NCBI GenBank assembly: GCA_963555705.1 | Contig: OY743169.1 | Coordinates: 8,804,014 to 8,868,013, forward strand | Length of the DNA: 64,000 bases | Direction of reading: 5' to 3' | DNA from: Ligustrum vulgare | Lineage: Eukaryota; Streptophyta; Magnoliopsida; Lamiales; Oleaceae | Part shown: positions 10,278 to 64,000 of the stretch, piece after piece | Layout: each line of letters opens with the position of its first letter | Numbering within the stretch: the first letter of the stretch is position 1 | Made by a program: the position numbers and the translations under genes | The notes under the pieces: model-generated | Databases searched by the model: none | What the model saw: only the letters and a program-made list of their open reading frames with translations | What the model was told of the DNA's origin: nothing

Positions 10278-10286
10278 GAGAATGAC

Positions 10287-11394: not shown

Positions 11395-12603
11395 CTATGC
11401 ACCATCCGAGATTGGATAGATAATTCCCGCATCCAACCCCTTCAATACCTCAACTTTTACCACTTCTTTCATGTTTGGATTTAGACGGCGTTGGTGCTCC
11501 ACTGTTGGTCTGAAGTCATCCTCCATGAGGATTTTATGCATGCATAAGGTAGGGCTAATACCCTTGATATCCGTCATAGTCCACACAATAGCCATTTTAT
11601 GCATTTTCAACACCTCAAGTAGTTTTTCTTCCTCCACTTCATTCAACAAATTAGAGATAACAACCCAAAGGGTAGAAGAATCGCCCAAGTATGCATACCT
11701 CAAATGTGATGGAAGAGGTTTGAGCTCAAGAGTTGGGACTTGTTGAATGGAGGGTAGTGAAGGAGAAGAGCTCTCTCCCAATTCTTCAAAATATGGCCTC
11801 TTCCTGAAGGGATAAAATTTGGAAGCATCCAAGTGTTGTGACATCCTTCTAATGTCTAAAGCATCCTCTCCCTTGGTGGTTATAGAGTGAACAATGCAAG
11901 TCTCAAGGGGATCCTTAGATGACCCATAGATGAATGATGTAGCCACTTCTTGATCAATGATGTCTACTCGGGAGCATAAATTTACTTCGGTGGGATACTT
12001 AATGGATTTCATGATGTCGAATGTGATTTGCTCATCTTGAACCCTCAATATCAATTTGCCTCCTTGCACATCTATTAAAGCTCGACCGGTTGTTAGGAAG
12101 GGTCTTCCCAAGATGATTGGGATATCAAGGTCTTCCTCCATATCAAGAATGATAAAATCGGCAGGGAAGATGAATTTGTCCACCTTGATTAGCACATCCT
12201 CAACAATACCACGCAGATGCTTAATAGAACGATCCGCCAATTGCAACGAAACTGTGGTTGGCTTCACCTCTCCCATGCCCAATCTCCTGAAAATAGACAA
12301 AGACATTAAATTAATACTAGCACCAAGATCACATAATACTTTACCAAAAGTTAAATCACCAATAGTACAAGGAATAGTAAAATTCCCTGGATCTTTGATT
12401 TTTGGAGGCAATTTGTTTTGTAATATGGTACTACACCCTTCCGTGAGCATCACAGTTTCATGATCTTCTAGCCTCCTTTTGTTTGAAAGTATGTCTTTCA
12501 CAAACTTTGCATAGTTAGGCATTTGTGCTAATGCATCGGCAAATGGTATGTTGATGTGAAGTTTCTTGAAGACTTCAAGAAATTTACCAAACTGTGCATC
12601 CAC
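11395..12603 (-). pseudogene. Athila protease region and gag-pol linker
   Basis: A 402-codon frame. Residues 1-60 are the end of the Athila gag-linker (FGKFLEVFKKLHINIPF). The aspartic protease is at about residues 85-185: VLCDLGASINLM is the active-site motif (DLGA in this lineage instead of DSGA/DTGA) and IPIILGRPFL is the downstream flap/helix signature. The remainder is a spacer leading into RT and ends at YPISDGA, where a TAG replaces the following Trp. It sits in the gag-pol polyprotein and would normally release the mature proteins. Confidence 0.88.
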
Positions 12604-12621
12604 TTTGTGCTTTTGGAGTCT

Positions 12622-14202: not shown

Positions 14203-14307
14203 AAACAAGGCAAAAGTACCTAGAAAGTGAAAATAAAAAGAAGAAAGAAATGAGAATGATAAGACAATTGAATAAAAAAAATCAATGCATTTAGTACAAA
14301 TAAAATC

Positions 14308-14327
14308 AATCCCCGCCAACGGCACCA
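14308..14327 (-). promoter_or_regulatory. Athila primer-binding site
   Basis: The minus strand reads TGGTGCCGTTGGCGGGGATT, six bases after the 5' LTR. It matches the usual Athila primer site (TGGCGCCGTTGCCGGGGA) apart from two substitutions, one of them a C-to-T type change. Confidence 0.85.
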
Positions 14328-14333
14328 AAAACT

Positions 14334-16025
14334 TGTTCGCTAAAATCGTATTCCGCAAGTGCAAGGTTCGCGTTCAAGTAGTAAAGTGGACTAGAGAAGT
14401 CCGGTTTATCGTACCCACGAGGATTGATTGATTTGTAACTAAAGTTATTGATTTCATTTTAAAAGAAAAGTCAAATAACATAAAAATATGGTGTGGTGGT
14501 GAATTACTAACTAAGTGAAACAAATAAGAAACATGACAATATGTAAACTAGTTAACTAAAGAAAATAGATAACAACATGAAACTTAGAATAAAACTAATT
14601 AATATAAATACTTTGATGACAATATAAACTTGATAATTAAAACAAGTTACATGACATAAAACAAAGTGAATTTAGTTTTCATAACTATACTATACTAATT
14701 TCTTCTTTTCAAAAATCAATTAGTGGTAGTTAATTAATCAACCAAATTACAAGGAAATTTTTTAAAATTACCTAACTTGTGTAGTAAATTCCAATTACAA
14801 CTTAAAATAATAACACACATTTAAAAGTTACTAAAACCTAAAACAACATTCATAATCACAAAAATATAAACATAAATGCCCAACATCTATAAACAACCTA
14901 AAATACTTAATAAGAAATAAACTAGTCAAAAATTCCAACACAATGATATTAACCCATAATAAACTAACAACAACATTTAATAAACAACATAAACGTATGA
15001 ATAATACTCAACATAAAGATTAAAAACAAGAGAATAAAGAAAACTCCCCCTTTTTTAATAGTTTTTGAAGTAAAAACCCAAGATTTCTTCACTTCAAATT
15101 TTTTTTTTCATCAACCATTAATGTCTTCAACAACCCAAGCACAAAACATTAAATGCATAAAAAATAAATGACATTCTTGACGAAAATGTGAGAAAATAAC
15201 AATACTCAAAAGTTTAAACAACAACAAAATACTTAAATATAAGAAAACATTACTAAATCATAAAAACATTAATTGAAAATTTCATTAAATGAGTAAAATG
15301 TTAAGAAAAATACAAGAGAAATTGCAAAAGGGGGAAGACTTACTTGGTAACCCTAAAAAGTGAGGATTTTTCCTATTTAAACCTCCCAAAAATCACCCAA
15401 AAAAATCTAAAAACGCACTAGATCCGCGAAATTCAGCATATGGGCCGAACTGGGTCGGCCGGGTTGACCCGGTCCGGCCCGGACATTTTTTTTTTGTTTT
15501 TAAAGCCGCGCGATCGCTCGCCGTAAACAGCGCGCGATCGCGCTGTTGATTTCCTGGCGACAGCTAAGTCTCGGGTCCGTTTTGAGGTCTAAGTCACGTT
15601 CGTGACTTGGTTCGAGCCACGCGATCGCGTGGCTCAGCTGGAGGGTGGTTTTGCGGCTAAGTCCCTTCCGTAATTGCCATTAAGTCCTCCATCTTTTAAT
15701 CCTGAGCAATTTAGTCCCCAATTTTTCAGATTTCTTTCAAATATGTTATTCTAAAATTGCACTTTAGGCCCTTCAAATTTTGAAATCTTGCAATTTGGTC
15801 CCTTGGTTAATTGCGCGGCTTCTCCAAAACTTCCCGGAAGTGACAAAATGGTCCCCAAACTTCCAATTTCAGTGTAATTTGCACTTCTTTTGTGGTTTTT
15901 GGCCTCAAACTTGGATATTAACCTATTTAAACACAAAATATGCATAAATTAGTAGATATTTGCTCAATATGTTCCAAAATATGCTAATTTAAAGGTATAA
16001 AAAGTGTATAAAAATGCACTTATCA
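14334..16025 (-). repeat. Athila 5' LTR
   Basis: A 1692-bp repeat from TGTTCGCTAAAATCG to CACTTATCA, homologous throughout to 5339-7023 with scattered substitutions and small indels. On the minus strand it starts TGATAAGTGCA and ends GCGAACA. Confidence 0.93.
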
Positions 16026-20533: not shown

Positions 20534-22501
<1,968 letters not shown>

Positions 22502-32340: not shown

Positions 32341-32472
32341 TTCTATGCCCTCCAGTCATCGAACGAAAACAACTGTGATAATTAAAGAAAACCTACCATA
32401 CCACATTGGGAGTGATTTACAACGTCGACCACAAAGCATGACTTTATAAATATCTCCCAAAAACACAAGGTC

Positions 32473-33040
32473 AAATAATTTACAATGTTTCATATGGTAA
32501 GACGTTACAAATTATTTCCTCGCAAATAATTTACAATGTCTCATATGGCAAGACGTTACAAATTATTTCCTTACAAATAATTTACAATGTCTCATATGGT
32601 AAGGCGTTACAAATTATTTCCTCGCAAATAATTTACAATGTCTCATATAGTAAGGCGTTACAAATTATTTCCTTACAAATAATTTACAATATCTCATATG
32701 GTAAGGCGTTACAAATTATTTCATTACAAATAATTTACAATGTCTCATATGGCAAGGTGTTACAAATTATTTTCCTACAAATAATTTACAGTGTCTCATA
32801 TGGCAAGGCGTTACAAATTATTTCCTCGCAAATAATTTACAATGTCTCATATGGTAAGGCGTTACAAATTATTTCCTTACAAATAATTTACAATGTCTCA
32901 TATGGCGAGGCGTTACAAATTATTTTCTCTCAAATAATTTACAATGTCTCATATGGCAAGGCGTTACAAATTATTTCCTTACAAATAATTTACAATGTCT
33001 CATATGGCAAGGCGTTACAAATTATTTCCTCATAAATAAA
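32473..33040 (+). repeat. 51-bp tandem array, about 11 copies
   Basis: The unit runs AAATAATTTACAATGTCTCA, TATGGCAAGGCGTTACAAAT, TATTTCCTTAC with few changes. Because 51 is a multiple of three it makes an open frame encoding a 17-residue repeat (YNVSYGKALQIIS-type) over part of the array. Each unit has AAATAATTT and AAATTATTT, which can pair. I regard the open frame as a by-product of the unit length. Confidence 0.9.
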
Positions 33041-34004
33041 TTATAAGGTCGACCAAAATATCCGACCTGACGAATTATTTCAACACAAATAATGTACAGG
33101 ATCAACCATCATGCCCGGCCTCACAGATTGCTTCCCTATGAAGAGTCTATAAGGTCGACCTACATGTCCGACATATTTCCTTAAATTACGCAAAGTCAAG
33201 GGTTTGACCCTTCTTTGTGCAAAGGGCTTACTGTTTACAAGGTCGGCTTAAATGCCCGACCTGTCTAACCATTCCCTTAAAACTACACAAAGTCAAATAA
33301 TTTACAAGGTGGGTCACATGGCACGAATTTATAAACTATTTCCTCAAAAACACGAAGTCGAGGACCTGACCATTTCTTTGTGTAAATCCTATACAAGATC
33401 GACCTTGATCGACCTTACAAATTTTTTTCCATGAATTCACAAATTCAATAGCTTGATCACTTCTTTGTGTAAATTATTTACAAGGTCGGTCTTGATCGAC
33501 AATACAAATTATTTTTCATAAACTCACGAAAGGGCAGGGCTTGACCCCTCATTTGCGTAAAGTCCATAAGGTTGGCCATGATCGACCTGTATAACTATAC
33601 TTCAAAATTATAAAGGGTTTCTAGTTCAAAGCACGAGCTCACTGCCATATTCAAAATACCCAACCTATCAACCATTCTTGTAAATTACACAAAATCAAGG
33701 ACTTGGCCCATTCTCTGTGCGGAAATTTACAAGGTCGGCCACAATACCCGACCTTACAATTAAATTCCCAAAAATCACAAAGTGAAGGGCTTGACCCTTT
33801 CTTTATTAAAAATAATTTACAGGGCCAGTCACATAGCACGACCTTCACAAGTTATTGGTGACACTACCTAGCTAAGTTGTTTCTTGCCCACACGCAAGCG
33901 CTCAAAGCCTTAAATCACGAGCAAACAATTAGATACTTGCTCATGCAAGTACACATGGTCATTCTCAAGCAGTCAAGTAATCAAATCACATAATGAAGTC
34001 CCCG
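33041..34004 (+). repeat. Loose repeats with AGGTCGACC / GCCCGACCT motifs
   Basis: Irregular repetition of TTTACAAGGTCG(A/G)CC, (A)TGCCCGACCT and AAAGTCAAGGGCTTGACCC, sharing the GGTCGG/CCGACC words of the LTRs. No gene. Confidence 0.6.
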
Positions 34005-38114: not shown

Positions 38115-38841
38115 TAGGGGTGGGCGTTTCGATTTTCGGTCCGGTTATTGAAGGAACCGAAATCGAATAGAAAATTTCGGTTCGGTTTCTGTTCTCAAAA
38201 CTCAAGAACCGAACGATTCCGGTTCTGATTCGGTTTCGATTATTTTTCGGTTCTTTGTTCGGTTTTTTTATTAAAAAAATCAACTTTGAGTAAACGTGAA
38301 AATGTGTGCGAAAAACAAATAAGTGTTGAGTCAAAATTTTCCAAATAAATCCATCAATGTGGCAAAATATTCAAATTGAATATATTCTTGTTCTGAAGAC
38401 ACTAAATATAGTTATAATATTCTGTATATTCCCATTAGCAATTAGAATTGTAGGATCTTCGTCTTCTGTTGTTCTATCTGTTGCTTATGCTGGAATGCTT
38501 AGATCACCCGAACTAAAAAAATGATAATAATGGCATATAGATATATTTATGTAGCGACCAAGAATTTTTACGCGATTAATAATTATTTTAATAGAAAATC
38601 GTGTCGCTACTATTTCACCCATTTTTATTAAGTTAACGCCACGACGTATTCGTATAGCCAAATCAAGAAATAATCAAGATCGTTCGATTTTAAATTAAAT
38701 TCCGAATTTCTAAAAATATCTCCATTCTCTTGATTTAAAGTATATTAAGTCCAAGTACTTAATTCAATGTTATCCCAATATTTATTTATACAAAAATTAT
38801 TTTTATTGAAATTAAGAAAATATATGCAATCATGGGAGGTT

Positions 38842-39330
38842 CCATTATATGTAATCATGAAGAGCATAATATTTGTATAAATATGGAAAAGTATATGAAT
38901 GATTTATATACTCCATTATATATAATCATGAAGAGCATAATATTTGTATAAATATGGAAAAGTATATGAATGATTTATATACTCCATTATATATAATCAT
39001 GAAGAGCATAATATTTGTATAAATATGGAAAAGTATATGAATGATTGATAAGACTCCATTATATGTAATCATGAAGAGCATAATATTTGTATAAATATGG
39101 AAAAGTATATGAATGATTTATATACTCCATTATATATAATCATGAAGAGCATAATATTTGTATAAATATGGAAAAGTATATGAATGATTGATAAGACTCC
39201 ATTATATATAATCATGAAGAGCATAATATTTGTATAAATATGGAAAAGTATATGAATGATTGATAAGACTCCATTATATATAATCATGAAGAGCATATTA
39301 TTTGTATAAATATGGAAAAGTATATGAATG
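38842..39330 (+). repeat. 71/72-bp minisatellite in E1 U3, 7 copies
   Basis: The unit begins CCATTATATATAATCATGAA and contains GAGCATAATATTTGTATAAA and TATGGAAAAGTATATGAATG. Two variants differ at the unit end (TTTATATACT or TGATAAGACT). It is placed upstream of the TATA box, so it could act on the promoter. Confidence 0.92.
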
Positions 39331-39554
39331 GTGCTTTACTTTAAGAAAAGGATGTGTTAAAATTAATAGAATTGAATGATTATGTTTACAATATGCCAAC
39401 TTTATACATCTATTTAAACCCATCTCTTTTACACACAACTCTACACATATACACTTATTTCCAATCTCATGACAAAATCCACAAGTAAGAGAAATTCAAG
39501 GTGGTCAAGAAAGTTTTGGTCCATTTACTACTACACTTCATTTTAATCTTTTAA

Positions 39555-40665
39555 AAGGTAAGTATATCTTATGTTTTTATGAAAAGTAAGTATGTTTTTA
39601 TGACAAGTATATCTTATGTTTTTATGAAAAGTAAGTATGTTTTTATGAAAGGTAAATACACCTTATGTTTTTATGAAAAGTAAGTATGTTTTTATGACAA
39701 GTAAGTATATCTTATGTTTTTATGAAAAGTAAGTATGTTTTTATGAAAGGTAAATACACCTTATGTTTTTATGACAAGTAAGTATATCTTATGTTTTTAT
39801 GAAAAGTAAGTATGTTTTTATGAAAGGTAAATACACCTTATGTTTTTATGAAAAGTAAGTATGTTTTTATGACAAGTAAGTATATCTTATGTTTTTATGA
39901 AAAGTAAGTATGTTTTTATGAAAGGTAAATACACCTTATGTTTTTATGAAAAGTAAGTATGTTTTTATGACAAGTAAGTATATCTTATGTTTTTATGAAA
40001 AGTAAGTATGTTTTTATGAAAGGTAAATACACCTTATGTTTTTATGACAAGTAAGTATATCTTATGTTTTTATGAAAAGTAATTATGTTTTTATGAAAGG
40101 TAAATACACCTTATGTTTTTATGAAAAGTAAGTATGTTTTTATGACAAGTAAGTATATCTTATGTTTTTATGAAAAGTAAGTATGTTTTTATGAAAGGTA
40201 AATACACCTTATGTTTTTATGAAAAGTAAGTATGTTTTTATGGCAAGTAAGTATATCTTATGTTTTTATGAAAAGTAAGTATGTTTTTATGAAAGGTAAA
40301 TACACCTTATGTTTTTATGAAAAGTAAGTATGTTTTTATGACAAGTAAGTATATCTTATGTTTTTATGAAAAGTAAGTATGTTTTTATGAAAGGTAAATA
40401 CACCTTATGTTTTTATGAAAAGTAAGTATGTTTTTATGACAAGTAAGTATATCTTATGTTTTTATGAAAAGTAAGTATGTTTTTATGAAAGGTAAATACA
40501 CCTTATGTTTTTATGAAAAGTAAGTATGTTTTTATGACAAGTAAGTATATCTTATGTTTTTATGAAAAGTAAGTATGTTTTTATGAAAGGTAAATACACC
40601 TTATGTTTTTATGAAAAGTAAGTATGTTTTTATGACAAGTAAGTATATCTTATGTTTTTATGAAA
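39555..40665 (+). repeat. 98-bp higher-order repeat in E1 5' LTR, about 11 copies
   Basis: Each 98-bp unit is four sub-units of 28, 21, 28 and 21 bases, all of the form GAxAxGTAAxTA...TATGTTTTTAT. The sub-units repeat GTAAGT or GTAAAT, so the array offers dozens of splice-donor-like words. It lies downstream of the TATA box and would be transcribed. Confidence 0.92.
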
Positions 40666-41180
40666 ATGTTTGGATCATTGCTATGAAATCAATCTCACAA
40701 GATTGTTATGGGTTCCATATGATATGTTTATGATTATGCTAAGGGGACCGGAGTTTAGTAGCGCTACACATAAGAATTCTTGCCATTTAAGTTCGGTAAA
40801 ATTCTTGTGTCTCCCTATGTTTATGAATATTTCAATCCTATCCTATGTTATGATGAAAATGATCCATATGCTTTCAAAAGAAAATTTATGCTTGGTATAC
40901 TTACTGGGATTTTATAAATCTCACTCCACGATATTTACCATTTTCAGATAATTGAAGGTTCGAGGCGGTCAACATGGAAGTGGCAAAAGTGGTTAAGATT
41001 GATGAGATAATTATGTTGAACTTTATGTAAGAAAATTATGTTCTATTTTTATTCACAAATAAAATTATGGGATTCTAATTATTCTTTTGAATAATTTTAC
41101 ATTACTATTTAAGTCTCGATAATATGATATGAGTCACTTTTTGTGGCACTCGAATGGTCGAGAATTCGGGTCGTCACAGT

Positions 41181-41192
41181 TGGTATCAGAGC
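41181..41192 (+). promoter_or_regulatory. E1 primer-binding site (tRNA-Met)
   Basis: TGGTATCAGAGC two bases after the LTR, a perfect initiator tRNA-Met match. Confidence 0.9.
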
Positions 41193-43100
41193 AAAGAGTT
41201 TTAAAAACGATTCTGTAGATTTTTGAAATTTTATTTCTTTAAAAAAAAAAAAAAAAAAAAATCACTATTCACGTGAACAGTAAAACGACGTGCTATTCAT
41301 GATGAACAGTGAACGAAATCACTATTCATTATAAAAATAAAAAAAAAAAGTTGAATTTTCACATGTCAAGTATGGTTATGATTTTGAAAAGCATGATGAA
41401 ATTTGATGTGCAAATTTCAAGGACAAAATTCATTTTAAGTAAGGGAGTTTGTAATGTCCTGAAAATTTTATGGAATATAATTAGTTAGTGATATGATGTT
41501 TATATTGATGTCTTTGATAAATTTCTAGAAGTTCGGGGACTAAAGGAAAAATAAGATTTGACGATAAATTTTATTTGGGTTAAGTTATTAATTATTGATG
41601 GGGAGATAATTACTATATCGATATTAGATTTGTTTTGAAGACTGTGATTAATTAGGAATTATGATTCAAGAAAATGTTGATTTGGATACAACCACATTAA
41701 ATTATTGTTGATTAAAGGAAAATAAGATTATATGAAATATTTTAACTCATCACTCTACTATGTCACTCTCCACGTATTGACTCCTCGAACCAGGTATGTT
41801 ATATGCTTTGCAAGTCATTTACGATTTTATTAAGACATGTTAAGTATGAAATCTTCATATGTTATGAATCTTTAAGTGAAATATACATGTTGAGTATGAT
41901 ATGAATTGATAGAAGCCTGAATTTTAATTTATTCCTTTTTATGTAGAATCATGAGACATAGAGGATATTGATATGAATTTTGGTTCATATTAAGCTTAGT
42001 AAGATTGACTCAATTAGAAATTAAGTTGGGTTGTAACTTTTGCCCAAAATATATGGAATAATATATTAAACAAACAAAATTAATAATGAATTCGTACAAT
42101 AATTTATCCCTTTATCACTACCTTTGTGTAAAAACAAGGGAAAAACTGTGGATGGTTATTAGTACTTCCTCTTCAAGTTTCAATTTTCGGTTCAATAATT
42201 TATCCCTTTATCACTACCTTTGCTTAAAAGTAAGGAAAAACTGTGGATGATTATTGGTACCACTCTTCAAGTTTCAATTCTGAAAAAAAATTCGGAAAGA
42301 AAGAAAGAGAACGGGTGTTGAGCATAATGGGAATAATATGACTTAAGAATGATTTTCAAAATAATTGTTGTCCTTGAGTTTAGAAATGATGAACCTTAAA
42401 TGGACTTTGCATAATTGATTTTAGACATGACACTAAGTATGAGAAGTCAACAGAAATGATTAGAAATATGTTCAGATTATCTATCATTTAGATTTAATGA
42501 GAAATAGCGAGCCAATTTTATGAAGTTTTATGAGATGTTAAGATTATAAGTGGTTTTAATGAGACTTTTATGAGAAGCATTATGAAGTTAGAGATTTAAA
42601 GATTTGGTTATTGGGAATTAAGTAATGGATATTATGTTGAGTAAGTGAATTATGCCTCTATATTGAAGAGAAATTTATTATGAACTTTGGCCTTGTGATT
42701 AAATTTTGGGAATATGATTTATGACTTATAAATATAAGTATGAGTAATCTTTTGAGCCAATTAAGGTATGGAAGGAAGTGATATTGTGATATTGAAAAAT
42801 ATGATTTGAAATTGTTATGTTGAGGAATTATGAATTGAATTATGGGATTTTTTTTTTGATATATTGAAGTGTTGGAATCGTTTTCAATATTTTTAGATCG
42901 TTGTGATCAAATGTGGAGATATTTATTATTGTGAGTTATGAAGTATGCTTATGGTTTGGGATAAGTCCAAATTACAAGGGAGACTTTGTCCAGAATTTTA
43001 TCATTTGGAATTAAGAGCATGATATGATAAGCATCCACTAAAGGAATTAAGGTTAGACATGCAAGTTCATTTACATCACAAACGAGATTTAGTAGATGAT
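41193..43100 (+). other. E1 non-coding interior, left part
   Basis: No ORF with recognisable motifs. Poly-A of about 21 at 41240-41260. Two sequences, 41280-41300 and 41305-41325, repeat GTTCACGTGAACAGT/CATGATGAACAGTG words. A tandem duplication of about 90 bases (42100-42250) is present once in E2 (63150-63230). Confidence 0.6.
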
Positions 43101-43204
43101 AGCAGAGATTTTATTATTTTCTCATAAGGAGAACATACAAAGAGTCACACTGGAAAAGAAATACATGAAACACGCAAAAGCAAAAGAAAGCAACATGGGA
43201 AATT

Positions 43205-43436
43205 CCTCAAATTGAGAGATGTGTTTCCGGAGTAGCCGTATCCTACCACCTCTGACCTTTTGAGGAAATAAAGAAACCTTCAAAGAGGTGTGTTTCGAGA
43301 GTAAGAATACTCCGTAATCTACCACCTGGAACCTTTGAGGTACACACAAGATTTAAACATTAAGGAAAATCCTAGGAAATTAGAGGGGTGTCTCGAGAGT
43401 AAGAATACTCCGTACTCTACCCCCACCTATTCTAAG
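43205..43436 (-). ncRNA. Three hairpin-motif copies, E1 counterpart
   Basis: Antisense to E1, this block matches 61981-62196 of E2 with only a few changes. It contains all three copies of the GGTGGTAG...TACGG...ACAC motif. See the E2 entry for the structure. Confidence 0.4.
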
Positions 43437-43438
43437 AT

Positions 43439-43772
43439 TCATAAAGTTAAGTTTACATTAACCGGACTCCATTTTCGCTTGATTCCCCTTCCTTGCGACC
43501 AATCTATCTTAACCCCTGCTGGATCTTGTATTGAGAAATATGACTGCAGCTTATCCAGTAGTTCATCAATAGTAGGAGCAGAAATAAGGAGCCTTCTGGA
43601 AAATGGAGAGATGAATCCCTGTTCCACAGCATAATCAAGAAAGGTTAACAAACCATCAAAGAAATTGTTAACATTCAGAAGCCCAATAGGCTTAGTATGG
43701 AGACCTAGTTGAGCCCACGAGGTAATGTTAAAGATTTCTTCTAAGGTACCAAAACCTCCGGGCAGGGCTATA
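43439..43772 (-). pseudogene. LOG gene remnant in E1 (3' half)
   Basis: Matches codons from about 106 to 217 of the E2 LOG gene. It keeps PGGFGTLEE and the C-terminal part. The 5' half is lost in a deletion whose edge is at about 43772-43780. At two sites E1 keeps residues closer to ordinary plant LOG proteins: LGLHTKP where E2 has LDLHTKP, and DYAVEQ where E2 has DYVVEQ. Confidence 0.85.
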
Positions 43773-43938
43773 AAGCCATCAGCAACCTCAATCTTTCGAG
43801 TCTTATTCGATAAATTTTCCTCAGATCATTCATTGGAAGACTGGAATAATACTTGCGAATGTTTGTAAGAATGATATCCATGATTTTGATGGATCTAACC
43901 TCTTCCCAGCATGAACTATTTAAAAGCATTAAGGATCG
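43773..43938 (-). pseudogene. Zinc-finger gene remnant in E1 (5' end)
   Basis: Matches the first ~51 codons of the 199-aa E2 gene, from its ATG to RLRLLM. It then joins the LOG remnant out of frame and meets a stop within a few codons. The zinc-finger core is absent. Confidence 0.8.
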
Positions 43939-44287
43939 GAGGGAATCCGCGTGATATTGATTCCAGCAAGAAAGCGCGGAATAGAATAATGGAAAAGAGG
44001 GAACAAGGGTTTATGCGCCGTTTACTTTCTTGATAAAAGGAAGATATGATGAAATATCACATACGATTGGAAATTTTCATTTTGAGTTAGAATTTATGAG
44101 TAGACACATATGTCTATTATTGATAAGAAAAATACATGTTCTTAAGAAAACAAAGAGATGATTTAGTAAAAGTCCAGTGGGTTAGATATTATAATGATGA
44201 GATTACTAAGAGAAAGAAGAGAAGAGATTCTGATTAAGTGTTCAGAAATCATAAGATCAAGTAAGATTAATTTCGAGGACGAAATTA

Positions 44288-44304
44288 TTTTAAGGGGGTA
44301 AGTT
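44288..44304 (+). promoter_or_regulatory. E1 polypurine tract
   Basis: TTTTAAGGGGGTAAGTT directly before the 3' LTR, preceded by GAGGACGAAATTA, a context familiar from Ty3/gypsy chromoviruses such as Tekay/Del (by recall). Confidence 0.8.
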
Positions 44305-46937
44305 TGTAGCGACCAAGAATTTTTACGCGATTAATAATTATTTTAATAGAAAATCGTGTCGCTACTATTTCACCCATTTTTATTAAGTTAACGCCACGAC
44401 GTATTCGTATAGCCAAATCAAGAAATAATCAAGATCGTTCGATTTTAAATTAAATTCCGAATTTCTAAAAATATCTCCATTCTCTTGATTTAAAGTATAT
44501 TAAGTCCAAGTACTTAATTCAATGTTATCCCAATATTTATTTATACAAAAATTATTTTTATTGAAATTAAGAAAATATATGCAATCATGGGAGGTTCCAT
44601 TATATGTAATCATGAAGAGCATAATATTTGTATAAATATGGAAAAGTATATGAATGATTTATATACTCCATTATATATAATCATGAAGAGCATAATATTT
44701 GTATAAATATGGAAAAGTATATGAATGATTTATATACTCCATTATATATAATCATGAAGAGCATAATATTTGTATAAATATGGAAAAGTATATGAATGAT
44801 TGATAAGACTCCATTATATGTAATCATGAAGAGCATAATATTTGTATAAATATGGAAAAGTATATGAATGATTTATATACTCCATTATATATAATCATGA
44901 AGAGCATAATATTTGTATAAATATGGAAAAGTATATGAATGATTGATAAGACTCCATTATATATAATCATGAAGAGCATAATATTTGTATAAATATGGAA
45001 AAGTATATGAATGATTGATAAGACTCCATTATATATAATCATGAAGAGCATATTATTTGTATAAATATGGAAAAGTATATGAATGGTGCTTTACTTTAAG
45101 AAAAGGATGTGTTAAAATTAATAGAATTGAATGATTATGTTTACAATATGCCAACTTTATACATCTATTTAAACCCATCTCTTTTACACACAACTCTACA
45201 CATATACACTTATTTCCAATCTCATGACAAAATCCACAAGTAAGAGAAATTCAAGGTGGTCAAGAAAGTTTTGGTCCATTTACTACTACACTTCATTTTA
45301 ATCTTTTAAAAGGTAAGTATATCTTATGTTTTTATGAAAAGTAAGTATGTTTTTATGACAAGTAAGTATATCTTATGTTTTTATGAAAAGTAAGTATGTT
45401 TTTATGAAAGGTAAATACACCTTATGTTTTTATGAAAAGTAAGTATGTTTTTATGACAAGTAAGTATATCTTATGTTTTTATGAAAAGTAAGTATGTTTT
45501 TATGAAAGGTAAATACACCTTATGTTTTTATGACAAGTAAGTATATCTTATGTTTTTATGAAGAGTAAGTATATTTTTATGAAAGGTAAATACACCTTAT
45601 GTTTTTATGAAAAGTAAGTATGTTTTTATGACAAGTAAGTATATCTTATGTTTTTATGAAAAGTAAGTATGTTTTTATGAAAGGTAAATACACCTTATGT
45701 TTTTATGAAAAATAAGTATGTTTTTATGACAAGTAAGTATATCTTATGTTTTTATGAAAAGTAAGTATGTTTTTATGAAAGGTAAATACACCTTATGTTT
45801 TTATGACAAGTAAGTATATCTTATGTTTTTATGAAAAGTAAGTATGTTTTTATGAAAGGTAAATACACCTTATGTTTTTATGAAAAGTAAGTATGTTTTT
45901 ATGACAAGTAAGTATATCTTATGTTTTTATGAAAAGTAAGTATGTTTTTATGAAAGGTAAATACACCTTATGTTTTTATGAAAAATAAGTATGTTTTTAT
46001 GACAAGTAAGTATATCTTATGTTTTTATGAAAAGTAAGTATGTTTTTATGAAAGGTAAATACACCTTATGTTTTTATGAAAAGTAAGTATGTTTTTATGA
46101 CAAGTAAGTATATCTTATGTTTTTATGAAAAGTAAGTATGTTTTTATGAAAGGTAAATACACCTTATGTTTTTATGAAAAGTAAGTATGTTTTTATGACA
46201 AGTAAGTATATCTTATGTTTTTATGAAAAGTAAGTATGTTTTTATGAAAGGTAAATACACCTTATGTTTTTATGAAAAGTAAGTATGTTTTTATGACAAG
46301 TAAGTATATCTTATGTTTTTATGAAAAGTAAGTATGTTTTTATGAAAGGTAAATACACCTTATGTTTTTATGAAAAGTAAGTATGTTTTTATGACAAGTA
46401 AGTATATCTTATGTTTTTATGAAAATGTTTGGATCATTGCTATGAAATCAATCTCACAAGATTGTTATGGGTTCCATATGATATGTTTATGATTATGCTA
46501 AGGGGACCGGAGTTTAGTAGCGCTACACATAAGAATTCTTGCCATTTAAGTTCGGTAAAATTCTTGTGTCTCCCTATGTTTATGAATATTTCAATCCTAT
46601 CCTATGTTATGATGAAAATGATCCATATGCTTTCAAAAGAAAATTTATGCTTGGTATACTTACTGGGATTTTATAAATCTCACTCCACGATATTTACCAT
46701 TTTCAGATAATTGAAGGTTCGAGGCGGTCAACATGGAAGTGGCAAAAGTGGTTAAGATTGATGAGATAATTATGTTGAACTTTATGTAAGAAAATTATGT
46801 TCTATTTTTATTCACAAATAAAATTATGGGATTCTAATTATTCTTTTGAATAATTTTACATTACTATTTAAGTCTCGATAATATGATATGAGTCACTTTT
46901 TGTGGCACTCGAATGGTCGAGAATTCGGGTCGTCACA
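44305..46937 (+). repeat. E1 3' LTR (2633 bp)
   Basis: Near-identical to 38550-41178, with the same two arrays (44597-45085 and 45310-46421), TATTTAAA at 45166-45173 and the 93-codon frame at 46429-46710. Confidence 0.93.
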
Positions 46938-47553
46938 ATTTATCATAACATAAAATCATTTAGGTCATTTGAACCTAAGTATATTTCGAAGATAACAAAC
47001 GATTTTTAATGAACTCTTATCTCGGACTTCAATATAAAATCACAATTCACTAATGCACCTCCACAAAAGTCACATACATGTCAAACCACACATTCTTCCT
47101 ATAATTAATTTAATACATATTAACATAACAGTCATTATCTTAATTTGTAAATACTATATCCAAAAAATTCACTGAACCAATGCGAGTGAGAGACTAGACA
47201 TCCAATCTTCTAAAATTGGTGCAAAGAATTTCATGTAAGATGCAACATGATATGAACAATTCAACAATTATCATAATACATCAAAGTAAGTTTGATTTGT
47301 ACACTCTATCATGTAAAGCAACACAGAAAACATCAAAAGTGTCACTTGGACTTAATTTTTAAATTAAGAATGTTCGGTTCTTGGTTCTGTTTTGGGTTTT
47401 CAAATAGGAACCGATCGGTTTTCGGTTCTTCATTTTTCGGTTCGGTTTCGATTATTATTTCTCATCTAAAGAACCGACCGGTTTCGATTTTTTTTGTTCG
47501 GTTCCGATTTGGTTCTTTCGGTTCCGATTTTTTTGTCCACCCCTAGCTCAGTT

Positions 47554-57149: not shown

Positions 57150-57546
57150 CTAGTGAATTACTCGTGCGATGCACGAAAAGAAATGTCTGGATAAAAATAA
57201 TTCAATGTGAAATCAAACGAATTCTTTAGATAAAATAAATAAATTTCGCAAATAAGAGATAAGATAATCATTTATTGATTTTATATGACTAAAAATTCTG
57301 AAATAGTTCTTTGTATACAACATTATTTTTTTATTTTGTTGATCTTCCATTCCTATCACAAATCAACGTCTTTAATCCGGAACGATTTGTTACCCTAGAA
57401 ATCGCAACATAAAGTTGTTCATGTGTAAACACCAGTCGTTTAAGAAAAAAGGAAAATGAAAATAAGATGCGCATGCAACAAAGATTGTTTCTTTATTTCA
57501 AAAAAGTTATGTACATTCGCAACACAAAAGGAGCCAACAGGACCTC
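57150..57546 (-). mobile_element. Helitron 3' part (minus strand), interrupted by E2
   Basis: On the minus strand the end reads TCGTGCATCGCACGA (hairpin, 57162-57176), then GTAATTCACTAG, with T as the next base. A helicase C-terminus lies upstream at 57331-57450. The rest of the Helitron should lie beyond E2, outside the window. Confidence 0.75.
57331..57450 (-). pseudogene. Helitron RepHel helicase, C-terminal fragment
   Basis: The minus-strand frame reads VFTHEQLYVAISRVTNRS then GLKTLICD and ends at a TAA at 57331-57333. The QLYVAISRV block is helicase motif VI of PIF1-like Helitron helicases. Upstream sequence loses similarity before the E2 insertion at 57547. It is a fragment of the enzyme that normally drives rolling-circle transposition. 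Confidence 0.85.
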
Positions 57547-59535
57547 TGTGACGACCCGAATTCTCGACCATTCGAGTGCCACTAAAAGTGACTCATATCA
57601 TATTATCGAGACTTAAATAGTAATGTAAAATTATTCAAAAGAATAATTAGAATCCCATAATTTTATTTGTGAATAAAAATAGAACATAATTTTCTTACAT
57701 AAAGTTCAACATAATTATCTCATCAATCTTAACCACTTTTGCCACTTCCATGTTGACCGCCTCGAACCTTCAATTATCTGAAAATGGTAAATATCGTGGA
57801 GTGAGATTTATAAAATCCCAGTAAGTATACCAAGCATAAATTTTCTTTTGAAAGCATATGGATCATTTTCATCATAACATAGGATAGGATCGAAATACTC
57901 ATAAACATAGGGAGACACAAGAATTTTACCGAACTTAAATGGCAAGAATTCTTATGTGTAGCGCTACTAAACTCCGGTCCCCTTAGCATAATCATAAACA
58001 TATCATATGGGACCCATAGCAATCTTGTGAGATTGATTTCATAGCAATGATCCAAACATTTTCGTAAAAACATAATGTATATTTACTTTTCATAAAAACA
58101 TACTTACTTTTCTTAAAAACATAAGGTATTTTACTTTTCATAAAAACATACTTACTTTTCTTAAAAACATAAGGTGTATTTACCTTTCATAAAAACATAC
58201 TTACTTTTCATAAAAATATAAGGTATACTTACTTTTCATAAAAACATAAGGTAATACCTTTCATAAAAACATACTTACTTTTCATAAAAACATAAGGTAT
58301 ATTTACCTTTCATAAAAACATACTTACTTTTCTTAAAAACATAAGATATACTTACTTGTCATAAAAACATACTTACTTTTCATAAAAACATAAGGTGTAT
58401 TTACCTTTCATAAAAACATACTTACTTTTCATAAAAACATAAGATATACTTACCTTTTAAAAGATTAAAATGAAGTGTAGTAGTAAATGGACCAAAACTT
58501 TCTTGACCACCTTGAATTTCTCTTACTTGTGGATTTTGTCAAGAGATTGGAAATAAGTGTATATGTGTAGAGTTGTGTGTAAAAGAGATGGGTTTAAATA
58601 GATGTATAAAGTTGGCATATTGTAAACATAATCATTCAATTCTATTAATTTTAACACATCATTTTCTTAAAGTAAAGCACCATTCATATACTTTTCCATA
58701 TTTATACAAATAATATGCTCTTCATGATTATATATAATGGAGTATACAAATCATTCATATACTTTTCCATATTTATACAAATATTATGCTCTTCATGATT
58801 ACATATAATGGAGTCTTATCAATCATTCATATACTTTTCCATATTTATACAAATATTATGCTCTTCATGATTATTTATAATGGAGTATATAAATCATTCA
58901 TATACTTTTCCATATTTATACAAATATTATGCTCTTCATGATTACATATAATGGAGTCTTATCAATCATTCATATACTTTTCCATATTTATACAAATATT
59001 ATGCTCTTCATGATTACATATAATGGAGTATATAAATCATTCATATACTTTTCCATATTTATACAAATATTATGCTCTTCATGATTACATATAATGGAGT
59101 CTTATCAATCATTCATATACTTTTCCATATTTATACAAATATTATGCTCTTCATGATTATATATAATGGAGTATATAAATCATTCATATACTTTTCCATA
59201 TTTATACAAATATTATGCTCTTCATGATTACATATAATGGAACCTCCCATGCTTGCATATATTTTCTTAATTTCAATAATAAAAGTAATTTTTGTATAAA
59301 TAAATATTGGGATAACATTGAATTAAGTACTTGGACTTAATATACTTTAAATCAAGAGAATGGAGATATTTTTAGAAATTCGGAATTTAATTTAAAATCG
59401 AACGATCTCGATTATTTCTTGACTTGGCTATACGAATACGTCGTGGCGTTAACTTAATAAAAATGGGTGAAATAGTAGCGACACGATTTTCTATTAAAAT
59501 AATTATTAATCGCGTAAAATTTCTTGGTCGCTACA
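57547..59535 (-). repeat. E2 3' LTR (1989 bp)
   Basis: Reverse complement of the E1 LTR: TGTGACGACCCG ... GGTCGCTACA. The 98-bp array is shortened to about 400 bases (58061-58455), while the 71-bp minisatellite has 8 copies (58681-59241). TATA equivalent TTTAAATA at 58593-58600. The 93-codon frame of E1 is here at 57774-58073. Confidence 0.93.
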
Positions 59536-59555
59536 AACTTACCCCCTTAAAATAA
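59536..59555 (-). promoter_or_regulatory. E2 polypurine tract
   Basis: Plus AACTTACCCCCTTAAAATAA is the complement of the E1 tract, directly next to the LTR. Confidence 0.8.
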
Positions 59556-60420
59556 TTTCGTCCTCGAAATTAATCTTACTTGATCTTATGATTTCTGAAC
59601 ACTTAATCAGAATCTCTTCTTCTTCTTCTTATGTAGCATCATCGCTACCATATTTAACCCAACCATATATTAACCCACTGGACTTTGACTAAATGCATCA
59701 ATTTGTTTTCTTAAGACATGGACTTTTCTATCAATAATAGACATATGTCTACTCATAAATTCTTCTGAATCAAAATGAAAATTCCCAATCGTATGTGATA
59801 TTTCATCATATCTTGTAGTATTCATGTAACTTGTCATTTATCATCGTATCATGTGACCTCAAATATTAGTATTAATATCTCTAAAATTTCAATAAATCTT
59901 TACTAACATATCATACCATAATAATTTGTCATTTCTTCTTATCACCAAATATCCCAAAATAATTAAAACGATTACCTGAATATTCTCTATGTAATATACC
60001 CAAACATGTTATTCACATATCAACATAATCATCAGTTTATCTTTCCAATATTTGTAACCCAAAATTTCTGCAAAATTCAATAAACAAATATCTCCCAAAT
60101 AATTAAAATTCTTAACTCAAATATCATAACATTTCCCGTAAGGTATTCCTTTCACTTGCACAAACTTATTAATCCTGATTCAATACAGTCCTTATTTCAC
60201 TTTCACGTATCCCCGTATTATTTCTATACCTTGATTATTATATCAAAATATCAGTACCCAAAATCCAAGAAAATATTCCATATCTCAAATCCCGTCATCA
60301 TCAAATCTTCCTTTTATCAAGAAAGTAAACGGCGCATAAACTCTTGTTCCCTCTTTTCCATTATTCTATTCCGCGCTTTCTTGCTGGAATCAATATCACG
60401 CAGATTCCCTCCGATCCTTA
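59556..60420. other. E2 interior left of the genes
   Basis: 59556-59809 and 60303-60420 match E1. The 59810-60303 stretch is missing from E1. No ORF of note. The last part (60330-60420) should contain the start region for the zinc-finger gene; no strong TATA box is seen. Confidence 0.5.
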
Positions 60421-61020
60421 ATGCTTTTAAATAGTTCATGCTGGGAAGAGGTTAGATCCATCAAAAACATGGATATCCTTCTTACAAACATTCGCAAGTA
60501 TTATTCCAGTCTTCCAATGAATGATCTGAGGAAAATTTATCGAATAAGACTCGAAAGATTGAGGTTGCTGATGGCTCATGGTGTTTCAGAAGATGTTCGC
60601 TGGTTGATCGAAGCAAAGGTTCGACTATCTGGTGAATTACCTATGACATTTCCAAAGCACATGCCTGGTTTAGGCAAAAGCATCTTCGCAAAGAAACGAA
60701 GAGCAAAAAGGCTGAATGGTTGCTACAAATGTGCTCGTTGGAACTGTGATACTCGTTGCAAAACAGTAGGATATTCTTCTACTAATCGGGATGATAAAAT
60801 CAAATTCATAAAGGGTGGACTGAGTAAGGAGTCTTTGGATGATATTCGACTGACTCTTGAGACGCACCCAAGTGGTTATGTGCAACGTGAACTTCTCTCC
60901 TTATACGCTCAGTTTAACGAGGACAAAAATCGTTATAGTCTCCAAAATATAATAGCAAAAGATCCTGTTTGCCAGTCTGTTTTACAAAATGAGGCTTCTG
61001 GCAGTTCAACAATGATATAA
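60421..61020 (+). CDS. Cysteine-rich basic zinc-finger protein, resembling betaflexivirus (carlavirus-type) nucleic-acid-binding protein
   Basis: 199 codons, uninterrupted and intronless. Residues 1-80 are helical and charged. The core is GKSIFAKKRRAKR (85-97), then C101-x2-C104, C109 and C113 with TRC, then GYSSTN and KFIKGG (128-133). The order G-S-x-A-RRA, C-x-x-C, TRC, G-S-N, FI-x-x-G is the pattern I know from carlavirus/allexivirus C4 nucleic-acid-binding proteins, many of which suppress RNA silencing. The Cys spacing is shorter than in carlaviruses, and residues 134-199 have no counterpart I recognise. Start: ATG at 60421; M17 at 60469 is an alternative. It lies 296 bases upstream of LOG in the same orientation and antisense to E2. 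A host zinc-finger protein remains possible. Confidence 0.6.
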   Translation: MLLNSSCWEEVRSIKNMDILLTNIRKYYSSLPMNDLRKIYRIRLERLRLLMAHGVSEDVRWLIEAKVRLSGELPMTFPKHMPGLGKSIFAKKRRAKRLNGCYKCARWNCDTRCKTVGYSSTNRDDKIKFIKGGLSKESLDDIRLTLETHPSGYVQRELLSLYAQFNEDKNRYSLQNIIAKDPVCQSVLQNEASGSSTMI

Positions 61021-61125
61021 GGTAAATCTCTTGATACACATTTAAAATATTTTGCTGTTTTCTTTCACGCGTTTTGGAAATAAAATATATTTTCCTTTCT
61101 CGAGTTTTGATAAAGCTGGAAATAA

Positions 61126-61141
61126 ATCACCGAAAGGTGAT
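61126..61141 (+). promoter_or_regulatory. Hairpin with GAAA tetraloop between the two genes
   Basis: ATCACC-GAAA-GGTGAT is a perfect 6-bp stem with a GNRA-type loop, about 105 bases after the zinc-finger stop codon. It could stabilise an RNA 3' end or be chance. It is absent from E1 because of the deletion. Confidence 0.35.
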
Positions 61142-61233
61142 ATCTTTGGTAAAACAGTCAAAAGTTGGCCGATTTTGTCAAAAGTAAATCTTTACTTTTT
61201 CATAATCAATCAAAAACAGTAAATTTTTTCGGC

Positions 61234-61241
61234 TTTAAATA
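61234..61241 (+). promoter_or_regulatory. Possible TATA box of the LOG gene
   Basis: TTTAAATA in GGCTTTAAATAGCC, 76-83 bases before the LOG ATG, with CATCTTCTTTGTAAG as a leader. Distance and context fit a plant core promoter, so LOG may have its own promoter inside the retroelement. Confidence 0.45.
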
Positions 61242-61316
61242 GCCAAACATATTTCATAGTTCAGGCATCCCAAAATCACATCTTCTTTGTAAGTTTTCTC
61301 TTGTATACTATCAAAG

Positions 61317-61970
61317 ATGGAAGCACCAAAACCTCGACAGATCAAAACTATTTGTGTATTTTGTGGATCAAAAGTGGGGAAAGGCTTCAGTTATCTAGAA
61401 GCGGCCGTAGATCTTGGAAAGAAACTGGGGGAAAAAGGTATCACTCTTGTGTATGGGGGTGGTAGCAGTGGTCTAATGGGTTGTGTTTCCCAATCTGCTC
61501 TTGCAGAGAAATCAAAAGTAATCGGTGTCATACCTGTCCCTTTGGTAGATGTTGCAGGCAAAACACGAGGGCATGAAGTTCAAACCTTATCCATCCATGA
61601 ACGCATAACTTGTATGCTATATGGTTCTGATGCCTTTATAGCCCTGCCCGGAGGTTTTGGTACCTTAGAAGAAATCTTTAACATTACCTCGTGGGCTCAA
61701 CTAGATCTCCATACTAAGCCTATTGGGCTTCTGAATGTTAACAATTTCTTTGATGGTTTGTTAACCTTTCTTGATTATGTTGTGGAACAGGGATTCATCT
61801 CTCCATTTTCCAGAAGGCTTCTTATTTCTGCTCCTACTATTGATGAACTACTGGATAAACTGCAGTCATATATCTCAATACAAGATCCAGCAGGGGTTAA
61901 GATAGATTGGTCGCAAGGAAGGGGAATCAAGCGAAAATGGAGTCCGGTTAATGTAAACTTAACTTTATGA
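61317..61970 (+). CDS. LOG-like: LONELY GUY-type cytokinin riboside 5'-monophosphate phosphoribohydrolase
   Basis: 217 residues, close to normal plant LOG length. LOG enzymes split ribose 5-phosphate from cytokinin nucleotides to release the active hormone, usually in cytosol and nucleus. Visible motifs: TICVFCGS at 11-18, VYGGGSSGLMG at 45-55, the conserved Arg at R96 (IHERI), SDAFIALPGGFGTLEE at 104-119 with the catalytic Glu of PGGxGTxxE, then KPIGLLNV and VEQGFIS. The usual Lys after the Arg is Ile here. Ordinary plant LOG genes have several introns; this copy has none, which suggests it passed through RNA. It is intact, antisense to E2, and follows the zinc-finger gene. A broken copy is in E1 (43439-43772). 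Confidence 0.92.
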   Translation: MEAPKPRQIKTICVFCGSKVGKGFSYLEAAVDLGKKLGEKGITLVYGGGSSGLMGCVSQSALAEKSKVIGVIPVPLVDVAGKTRGHEVQTLSIHERITCMLYGSDAFIALPGGFGTLEEIFNITSWAQLDLHTKPIGLLNVNNFFDGLLTFLDYVVEQGFISPFSRRLLISAPTIDELLDKLQSYISIQDPAGVKIDWSQGRGIKRKWSPVNVNLTL

Positions 61971-61980
61971 ATCTTAGAAT

Positions 61981-62196
61981 AGGTGGGGGTAGAGTACGGA
62001 GTATTCTTACTCTCGAGACACCCCTCTAATTTCCTAGGATTTTCCTTAATGTTTAAATCTTGTGTGTACCTCAAAGGTTCCAGGTGGTAGATTACGGAGT
62101 ATTCTTACTCTCGAAACACACCTCTTTGAAGGTTTCTTTATTTCCTCAAAAGGTCAGAGGTGGTAGGATACGGCTACTCCGGAAACACATCTCTCA
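61981..62196 (+). ncRNA. Three hairpin-forming motif copies downstream of LOG
   Basis: Copies at 61981-62027, 62082-62124 and 62157-62196 share GGTGG(GGG)TAG(A/G)nTACGG...CGnnACAC. In copies 1 and 2 the inner stem is GAGTA/TACTC around TTCT; in copy 3 it is CGG/CCG. Outer stems: AGGTG/CACCT in copy 2, AGAGGTG/CATCTCT in copy 3. Different sequences keep pairing, which argues for a structured RNA, probably in the LOG 3' UTR. Copies 2 and 3 are each preceded by a CCTCAAAnGGT stretch. The block also survives in E1. Confidence 0.45.
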
Positions 62197-62334
62197 ATTT
62201 GAGGAATTTCCCATGTTGCTTTCTTTTGCTTTTGCGTGTTTCATGTATTTCCTTTCTAGGGTGACTCTTGTGTGTTCTCCTTATGAGAAAATAATAATAT
62301 TTCTGTTATCATCTACTAAATCTCGTTTGTGATG

Positions 62335-63958
62335 TAAATGAACTTGTATGTCTAACCTCAATTCTCTTAGTGATTGCATACCATACTATGCTCTTAACTC
62401 CAAACGATAAAATTCTAGGCAGAGTTTTCCTTTGAAATTTGGACTTAATCCAAATCGTAAGCATACTTCATAACTCACAATTATAAATAATTCCACATTT
62501 GATCACAACGATCTAAAAATTGACCACAATTTCATCAAACTTCAATATCATAAAAAAATATTCCAGAAAATCAATTCATAATTCCTCAACATAGAAATTT
62601 CAAATCATAGTCGTCAATATCACAATATCACTTCCTTCAATACCTTAATTGGCTCAAAAGATTACTCATACTTATATTTATAAGTCATAAATCATATTCC
62701 CAAAATTTAATCACAAGGCCAAAGTTCATAATAAATTTCTCTTCAATATAGAGGCATAATTCACTTACTCAACATAATATCCATTACTTAATTCCCAATA
62801 ACCAAATCTTTAAATCTCTAACTTCATAATGCTTCTCATAAAAGTCTCATTAAAATCATATCACTTATAATCTTAACATCTCATAAAAATTCATAAAATT
62901 GGCTCGCTATTTCTCATTAAATCTAAATGATAGATAATCTGAACATATTTCTAGTCCTTTCTGTTGACTTCTCATACTTAGTGCCATGTCTAAAATCAAT
63001 TATGCAAAGTCCATTTAGGGCTCATCATTTCTAACCTTGACGACAAAGATTATTTTGAAAATCATTCGTAAATCATATTTTTTTTTTCATTATACTAAAC
63101 ACTCGTTTTCTTTCTGAAATTTTTTTTTTTTTTTTTTTTTCAGAATTGAAATTTGAAGAGTGGTACCAATAATCATCCACAGTTTTTCCTTACTTTTAAG
63201 CAAAGGTAGTGATAAAGGGATAAATTATTGTACGAATTCATTATTAATTTTGTTTGTTTAATATATTATTCCATATATTTTTTTTTTGGCAAAAATTACG
63301 AACCAACTTAATTTCTAATTGAGTCAATCTTACTAAGCTTAATATGCACCAAAATTCATATAAATATCCTCTCTGTCTCATGATTCTACATTGAAAAGAA
63401 TAAAAAAATTGAGTCTTCTATCAATTTATATCATACTCAACATGTATATTTCACTTAAAGATTCATAACATATGAATATTTCATACTTAACATGTCTTAA
63501 TAAAATCGTAAATGACTTGCAAAGCATATAACATACCTGGTTCGAGGAGTCAATACGTGGAGAGTGACATAGTAGAGTGATGAGTTAAAATATTTCATAA
63601 AAAAATAATTATTAATCATTTCGCATCTTTACATAAGATTGGGCCTAATTAACCCAAATAAAAATTTATCGTCAAATCTTATTTTCCTTTAGTCCTCGAA
63701 CTTCTAGAAATTTATCAAAGACATCAATATAACATCATATCACTAACTAATTATATTCCATAAAATTTTCAGGACATTACAAGCTCCCTTGCTTAAAATG
63801 AATTTTGTCCTTGAAATTCGCGCATCAAATTTCATCATGCTTTTCAAAATCATAACCATACTTGACATGTGAAAATTCAACTTTTTTTTTTTTTTGAATA
63901 GTGATTTCGTTCACTGTTCATCATGAATAGCACGTCGTTTTACTGTTCACGTGAATAG

Positions 63959-64000
<42 letters not shown>
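62335..64000 (-). other. E2 non-coding interior, right part
   Basis: Matches E1 41240-43100 in reverse complement. No ORF. Poly-T runs at about 63119-63139 and 63962-64000; the last one is at the window edge and may be an assembly-sensitive homopolymer. Confidence 0.6.

Follow-up and report, generated by a model that had tools for sequence, protein, structure and literature searches.

A window of 64,000 nucleotides of Ligustrum vulgare (C2:8804014-8868013 of a 1.385-Gb genome in 51 contigs) contains two long terminal repeat (LTR) retrotransposons of one family, E1 and E2, in which a cassette of two genes lies on the strand opposite to that of the element. One gene encodes a LOG-type enzyme (LOG) and the other a zinc-finger protein of the Viral_NABP family (NABP). 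Both proteins are under constraint between subfamilies, with a ratio of nonsynonymous to synonymous substitution rates (dN/dS) below 1, and the same orientation of the cassette recurs across two unrelated LTR families and a diverged variant of one of them. These elements may well be a non-autonomous LTR family, moved in trans, whose antisense strand is an accessory module of two genes acting on the host cell, a reading that we hold with evenly balanced confidence.

E2 is a young LTR retrotransposon, the first of a three-unit array with four shared LTRs that extends over 57547-79108 in window coordinates (read beyond the window end). LTRs with TG...CA ends, a primer-binding site (PBS), a polypurine tract (PPT) and 5-bp target-site duplications (TSDs; ATTTA at E1, ACCTC around the E2 array) identify both elements as LTR retrotransposons. 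The second LTR of the array starts at 64073, just beyond the window end, and is preceded by TCTGATACCAAC, the PBS of E2 as read on the plus strand. The first three LTRs are identical over 1987 compared bases and the fourth shows 3 differences; this near-identity, together with the single outer TSD, indicates that one insertion was turned into a tandem array or came as one. Tandem repeats of 49 bp and 71 bp are contained in the first LTR. Tandem units are frequent in the family, and at least 11 neighbouring pairs of LTR-internal-LTR units, 6.5-7.1 kb apart, were chosen by eye among 150 scored LOG places, a number that is a minimum.

The original prediction, made from the letters of the window alone, had described in E2 an LTR, a PPT and two antisense open reading frames (ORFs) without gag or pol, and this anatomy was confirmed by frame scan and tblastn (Table 1). 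The two ORFs lie on the plus strand at 60421-61020 (199 amino acids) and 61317-61970 (217 amino acids), antisense to the element. No other stop-free frame of at least 130 codons was present in the within-window part of E2, and no match was obtained by tblastn with Ty3/gypsy gag, protease, reverse transcriptase and integrase. Within the window, E2 shows neither of the gag and pol regions that an autonomous LTR retrotransposon encodes. The Athila-type order, with pol upstream and an extra ORF in sense, is likewise absent, as no pol was found and the ORFs are antisense. Membership of E2 in Retand was ruled out, because the antisense TRP28 domain (PF04195) is absent from the Pfam matches of both ORFs (up to E 1).

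The LOG gene had been called intact, and it is open over its 217 codons. Its product matched the Lysine_decarbox/LOG profile with 116.4 bits (cut-off 27), and the best solved relatives were the Arabidopsis proteins 2a33 and 1ydh, which we take to be LOG3 and LOG8. An AlphaFold2 model (pLDDT 86, pTM 0.83) was aligned to 2a33 with TM 0.77/0.96 and 51% identity, and the protein has both the LOG phosphoribohydrolase fold and the PGGxGTxxE motif. This motif reads PGGFGTLEE in the window LOG and PGGYGTLEE in 108/120 plant-type LOGs, the pattern being unmatched in the other 12/120. LOG enzymes release active cytokinin. The TATA-like TTTAAATAG begins 83 bases 5' of the LOG start, and the same box begins 43 bases 5' of the NABP start.

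The zinc-finger ORF matched Viral_NABP with 31.3 bits (cut-off 23) and Carla_C4 with 20.9 bits (cut-off 20.9); the aligned NABP members matched these profiles in 40/40 and 38/40 cases, respectively, at E 0.01. A C-x2-C-x4-C-x3-C finger preceded by a basic patch was found in the protein, and the finger is present in 108/120 relatives. This ORF is intact, as had been predicted, and its start was moved from 60421 to 60469. The gene most likely starts at Met17 (60469), which gives 183 amino acids, 16 residues fewer than from 60421, because most aligned relatives begin there, in several copies the frame is broken upstream of Met17 yet open from there onwards, and the upstream ATG sits just 5' of the TATA-like box; the start at 60421 was rejected on these grounds. 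The proposal that the partner of LOG resembles a silencing suppressor gains from its match to carlavirus-type proteins, a family with some silencing suppressors among its members, and NABP may be of this kind. Chrysanthemum virus B (CVB) p12, a carlavirus protein of the same Pfam families, activates transcription and suppresses silencing (PMC7588395). No relative of NABP was found in IMG/VR (20 pattern stretches, 0 confirmed), and the NABP profile gave no match to a PDB chain at E values up to 1. At the NABP end, AAGGTAAATC (61010-61030) resembles a 5' splice site and is unchanged in 15 printed copies (of 39), even in some copies with a reading frame that ends at a different codon.

Copies of the cassette were searched for across the genome, with only the best candidates scored, so that first-look place numbers are not copy numbers and the results are lower bounds. 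In the LOG DNA search, the best 40 of 225 candidate places were scored and were 90-100% identical (rounded) over the gene. The LOG protein search gave 150/150 full-length places without a stop among the best 150 of 9408 first-look places, nearly all with the same score and nearly all on contigs C1-C4. In the Viral_NABP profile search, the best 150 of 7081 first-look places were all above the cut-off and most lacked stops; none of 14 control genomes (0/14) was matched. Among the 39 copies read (L001-L039, of which L003 is the window's own), 32 have an open LOG, 31 an open NABP and 28 both. Other copies in the genome retain the genes, which bears out the prediction that the genes travel with the element, and an insertion of host genes as a one-off event was rejected. 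Chance ORFs were also rejected on the basis of profile matches, genome-wide copies and the codon pattern.

Differences of LOG copies from the window copy fall mostly at third codon positions. For 91 pairs from 14 chosen copies (of 39), the pooled pN/pS was 0.17 for LOG and 0.30 for NABP; the printed pairs ranged over 0.06-0.49 for LOG and 0.16-1.12 for NABP, with two undefined (0 synonymous changes). In four non-overlapping pairs, chosen to share no copies and with codons containing stops or gaps skipped, dN/dS was 0.24 for LOG (p 9e-17) and 0.39 for NABP (p 1e-8), the p values coming from a binomial test in which substitutions are treated as independent and a transition weight of 2 is assumed. 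The window copy was further compared with copies from elements with short LTRs at dS 0.41-0.52, giving dN/dS of 0.10-0.13 for LOG and 0.26-0.27 for NABP. Absence of the cassette from all other copies, or a dN/dS equal to 1 together with a lack of sense transcripts, had been named beforehand as what would speak against a functional system; other copies keep the cassette, and comparisons between subfamilies put dN/dS well below 1.

The cassette was found in several kinds of LTR element. L034 has E2-like LTRs (88-89%), and the long LTR of L031-L033 is a diverged one (~67% over one stretch and 83-90% over others); in all four the cassette is antisense too, as judged from a PBS on the same side (in L031-L033 as in E2). 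L043 and L044 have short LTRs, of 266 bases at 95% identity in L043 and of 208 bases at 100% in L044. Their TSDs are ATTTC and GTTGC, respectively; a purine tract adjoining one LTR indicates that the cassette is antisense there as well. No gag-pol was found in these two with Ty3/gypsy queries, their short frames (110-159 codons) lying outside the domain scans. L038 and L039 were grouped with L043 and L044, and E2 and this short-LTR family have little in common beyond the 2-kb cassette. In 11 contexts of 9-10 kb (L031-L039, L043 and L044), no match to Ty3/gypsy gag, protease, reverse transcriptase or integrase was obtained, copia-type pol not being queried.

L042 (260-2347) also has an intact NABP gene, which lies 3' of a Ty3/gypsy integrase and in the same direction. 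This contig is filed under a Candidatus Nomurabacteria metagenome-assembled genome (DAIEQH010000041.1) and is probably of plant origin. We read the integrase as that of Athila. The NABP gene occupies the place of env-like ORFs in L042, a position that hints at the origin of the gene. The window itself has a degraded Ty3/gypsy element with gag, protease, reverse transcriptase and integrase at 8824-14373 (minus strand), with direct repeats within 5339-6759 and 14334-15761; its integrase is 53-59% identical to that of L042, and no NABP or LOG was found in it by tblastn.

E1 (38550-46937) is a complete insertion in the opposite direction to E2, with its TSD on both sides. A broken form of the cassette had been noticed in it, and indeed only pieces of NABP and LOG were kept (Table 1), with ~1 kb deleted between them. 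The PBS is presumably of the initiator-Met type, and no gag or pol was found in E1 by tblastn with Ty3/gypsy queries. The LTR pair of E1 shows 6 mismatches and 5 gap columns over 2627 compared positions (0.2% apart), in a comparison whose coordinates deviate by 2 bases where each LTR begins and by 1 where the 5' LTR ends. Arrays of 71-bp and 49-bp units lie in the LTRs at 38841-40666, 44596-46425 and 58059-59241, with unequal copy number between E1 and E2.

The C-terminal tail sets element-type LOGs apart from plant-type LOGs. An LxLxL end was found in 94/120 element-type relatives, and together with a basic cluster in 91/120; among the plant-type LOGs the LxLxL end was found in 0/120 and the basic cluster in 2/120, which is a contrast between lists of related sequences and not a test on independent data. 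The element-type relatives are the best matches of the window LOG, some of them truncated or fused gene models and a transposon location not being shown for each, and the plant-type LOGs are the best matches of Arabidopsis LOG3, hence LOG1/LOG3-like only. The EAR repression motif has two consensus patterns, LxLxL and DLNxxP (PMC9956375). The copies read of the window family end in VNVNLTL or close variants, which do not match the strict LxLxL pattern. The low predicted confidence of the tail (pLDDT <50) would be in keeping with a linear motif. In a tree built from 56 chosen rows (31 + 25), the element-type LOGs, including that of the window, were separated from the plant-type LOGs by a 100/100 branch.

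Beyond this genome, 375 relatives of NABP were obtained at E 0.01 and 7183 relatives of LOG at 1e-5, host genes counted in. Named matches came from Orobanche, Populus, Acer, Xanthoceras, Reevesia, Diplodiscus, Diospyros, Primulina and Parasponia, which we take to be rosids and asterids; Reevesia accounts for >30 of the 120 listed LOG matches. Four Orobanche gene models (P0018, P0020-P0022) have both domains. NABP and LOG relatives also occur on contigs of equal size (8723; 4511), which suggests, and does not prove, the same contig. Unlike the cysteine-rich or nucleic-acid-binding proteins of betaflexiviruses, the element NABPs are mostly ~182 amino acids long, form a large set of their own (the 120 listed are 51-82% identical to that of the window) and lie inside a retrotransposon.

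The following course of events is proposed. The sense RNA of the E1/E2 family would presumably be copied and integrated by the gag-pol proteins of a partner, and the antisense strand would serve as a two-gene accessory module in which each gene has a promoter-like box. NABP may act like the carlavirus cysteine-rich proteins, as a nuclear regulator, a silencing suppressor or both, and LOG would release active cytokinin. Together they could favour division and weaken silencing in meristem cells, and new insertions would then be likelier to be inherited. Selection would act on lineages that supply the products and not on every copy, so that broken copies such as E1 could remain mobile. If this is true, the element intervenes in the hormone and defence pathways of its host in a manner more familiar from viruses and gall-forming microbes, and a genomic parasite may act on both host growth and host defence. 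Some plant 'LOG' gene models may then be transposon genes, which would affect cytokinin gene counts.

A wider reading is put forward tentatively, as we consider it possible and rather unlikely. A module of two genes, with the message 'grow and do not silence' and partly of RNA-virus kinship, would be common to plant LTR retrotransposons that are unrelated to one another, and selection on the parasite would maintain it. LOG would have acquired its basic, EAR-like tail, which would direct the enzyme into the nucleus and to co-repressors of the TOPLESS type; it would then both raise cytokinin and rewire transcription, and the gag-pol-less elements would be helpers of the family, not freeloaders.

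Several observations weigh against an accessory module in a family moved in trans. The main counter-evidence is E1, which inserted recently despite its broken cassette, so the module is not required in cis. No autonomous partner of the E1/E2 family was found among the elements read, and L042 has NABP without a nearby LOG, none being found in the remaining 983 bases after the gene. The fractions of open frames are biased upward, because copies were chosen by likeness to the LOG query. The differences in NABP among the youngest copies are mostly nonsynonymous (L001 vs L004, L010 and L018: 3-5 nonsynonymous, 0-1 synonymous), as expected for fresh unselected insertions. The structure model of NABP is weak (pLDDT 72, pTM 0.38), and its best match in BFVD, a viral nucleic acid-binding protein, was at E 0.021, with none at 0.001; this fold search gave no significant match, although betaflexivirus NABPs or silencing suppressors filled many of its top ranks.

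The main rival, which we regard as a doubtful yet serious candidate, holds that both genes were selected in an autonomous Athila-like element, in sense position after pol, and that non-autonomous elements recaptured the cassette repeatedly, with the constraint accumulated elsewhere. The order in L042, with the integrase followed by intact NABP on the same strand, fits this account, as does the scant likeness of the long-LTR and short-LTR families outside the cassette, and LOG-type domains occur in Gypsy consensus sequences built around reverse transcriptase (PMC9289625). However, the 11 contexts gave no gag-pol match with Ty3/gypsy queries, dN/dS is 0.21-0.43 for pairs taken inside the short-LTR family, and LOG is absent from the 983 bases that follow NABP in L042.

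It is improbable that some copies work for the host as LOG or NABP genes and owe their retention to host-level selection. Public gene models call some close relatives ordinary LOG genes, but the constraint was seen between dispersed copies and subfamilies and not shown at one conserved locus, and tandem units and near-identical LTRs indicate active spread. A role of the RNA or DNA, with the proteins irrelevant, is slightly less probable again: the antisense transcript would regulate the element, or homology to host LOG would shield it from silencing, as proposed for antisense ORFs (PMC7264820) and captured genes (PMC13317346), respectively. Against this stand the amino-acid constraint on both frames and the element LOG itself, which at ~51% identity to Arabidopsis 2a33 is far from close host homology. 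Least probable of all is that the genes are neutral passengers of a family that was amplified recently, for although near-identical LTRs mean that most open frames require no selection, LOG is broken in 7/39 and NABP in 8/39 copies and the youngest NABP copies changed as described, this account, which the original prediction had kept as its alternative of neutral gene capture, is contradicted as the whole story by the subfamily comparisons, with dN/dS of 0.10-0.27 between copies at dS 0.31-0.52, and by same-length relatives in distant eudicots.

LARD-type non-autonomous LTR elements are moved in trans and are usually non-coding; the E1/E2 family is like them in its LTRs, PBS, PPT, lack of gag-pol and recent mobility, and differs in its two ORFs under constraint. 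LOGL4-like ORFs were reportedly described in two Athila-like elements by Steinbauerova et al. in 2011. The original prediction knew of no LOG among the antisense ORFs of Tat-type elements, and as a statement on plant LTR elements this did not hold, because a LOG-type YgdH domain is in print for Gypsy consensus sequences of Citrus sinensis, C. clementina and Populus trichocarpa, in line with an earlier report cited there (PMC9289625); a LOG-family domain in a plant LTR element is therefore not new. Those sequences were built around reverse transcriptase, whereas no gag-pol was found in E1 and E2 and their LOG is antisense, and section 12 of that report makes no mention of an NABP partner, a selection test or the LOG tail. 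A captured enzyme is also known from Phalaenopsis Gypsy elements, in which AlkB (2-ODD) has reported in vitro activity; they are large (25 kbp) with one extra enzyme ORF, unlike the gene pair of the gag-pol-less E2, and AlkB domains are also found in Betaflexiviridae (PMC9289625).

Antisense ORFs are well known in plant LTR elements (PMC7264820, PMC11963269). Retand/Tat, Grande, RIRE2 and PvRetro13 share with E2 antisense coding ORFs, some being non-autonomous and many having tandem repeats, but their antisense domains, where reported, are TRP28, Smc and others, in contrast to LOG and Viral_NABP in E2 (PMC11963269, PMC7264820). In literature and full-text searches, mostly without subscription papers, no report was found of Viral_NABP in retrotransposons, of a gag-pol-less antisense LOG/NABP pair, of selection on the pair or of the tail of LOG. 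What antisense ORFs do in plant retrotransposons is described as an open question (PMC7264820), which becomes testable here, as both domains are recognisable, both proteins are constrained and many copies are young.

Table 1. Positions of the parts of E1, E2 and the cassette genes in window coordinates.
Feature	Position	Strand	Remarks
E1 5' LTR	38550-41178	+	TSD ATTTA at 38545-38549
E1 PBS	41181-41192	+	TGGTATCAGAGC
E1 LOG remnant	43442-43783	-	Residues 104-217 only; 96% identical
E1 NABP remnant	43810-43881	-	Residues 1-24
E1 PPT	44290-44304	+
E1 3' LTR	44305-46937	+	TSD ATTTA at 46938-46942
Left TSD of the E2 array, ACCTC	57542-57546		Partner after the array's last LTR, from 79109, beyond the window end
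E2 LTR, first of four	57547-59535	-	TG...CA on the minus strand
E2 PPT	59536-59560	-	CGAAATTATTTTAAGGGGGTAAGTT on the minus strand; adjoins the LTR
E2 internal region	59536-64000	-	Extends 72 bases beyond the window end
Largest cassette extent common to E2 and short-LTR L038, L039, L043 and L044	60150-62239	+	L044 in two pieces
TATA-like box upstream of NABP	60426-60434	+	TTTAAATAG; TAAATAG kept in 38/39 copies
NABP gene, 183 amino acids	60469-61020	+	Viral_NABP/Carla_C4 family
TATA-like box upstream of LOG	61234-61242	+	TTTAAATAG; TAAATAG kept in 37/39 copies
LOG gene, 217 amino acids	61317-61970	+	Motif PGGFGTLEE; single uninterrupted frame
LOG C-terminal end	61905-61967	+	Basic patch, ends VNVNLTL; pLDDT <50 from residue 201

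Elsewhere in the window, a tandem array of a 51-bp unit (~11 copies) lies at 32472-33050, and a fragment of a peroxidase gene (Pfam peroxidase) was identified at 22022-22498 on the plus strand.

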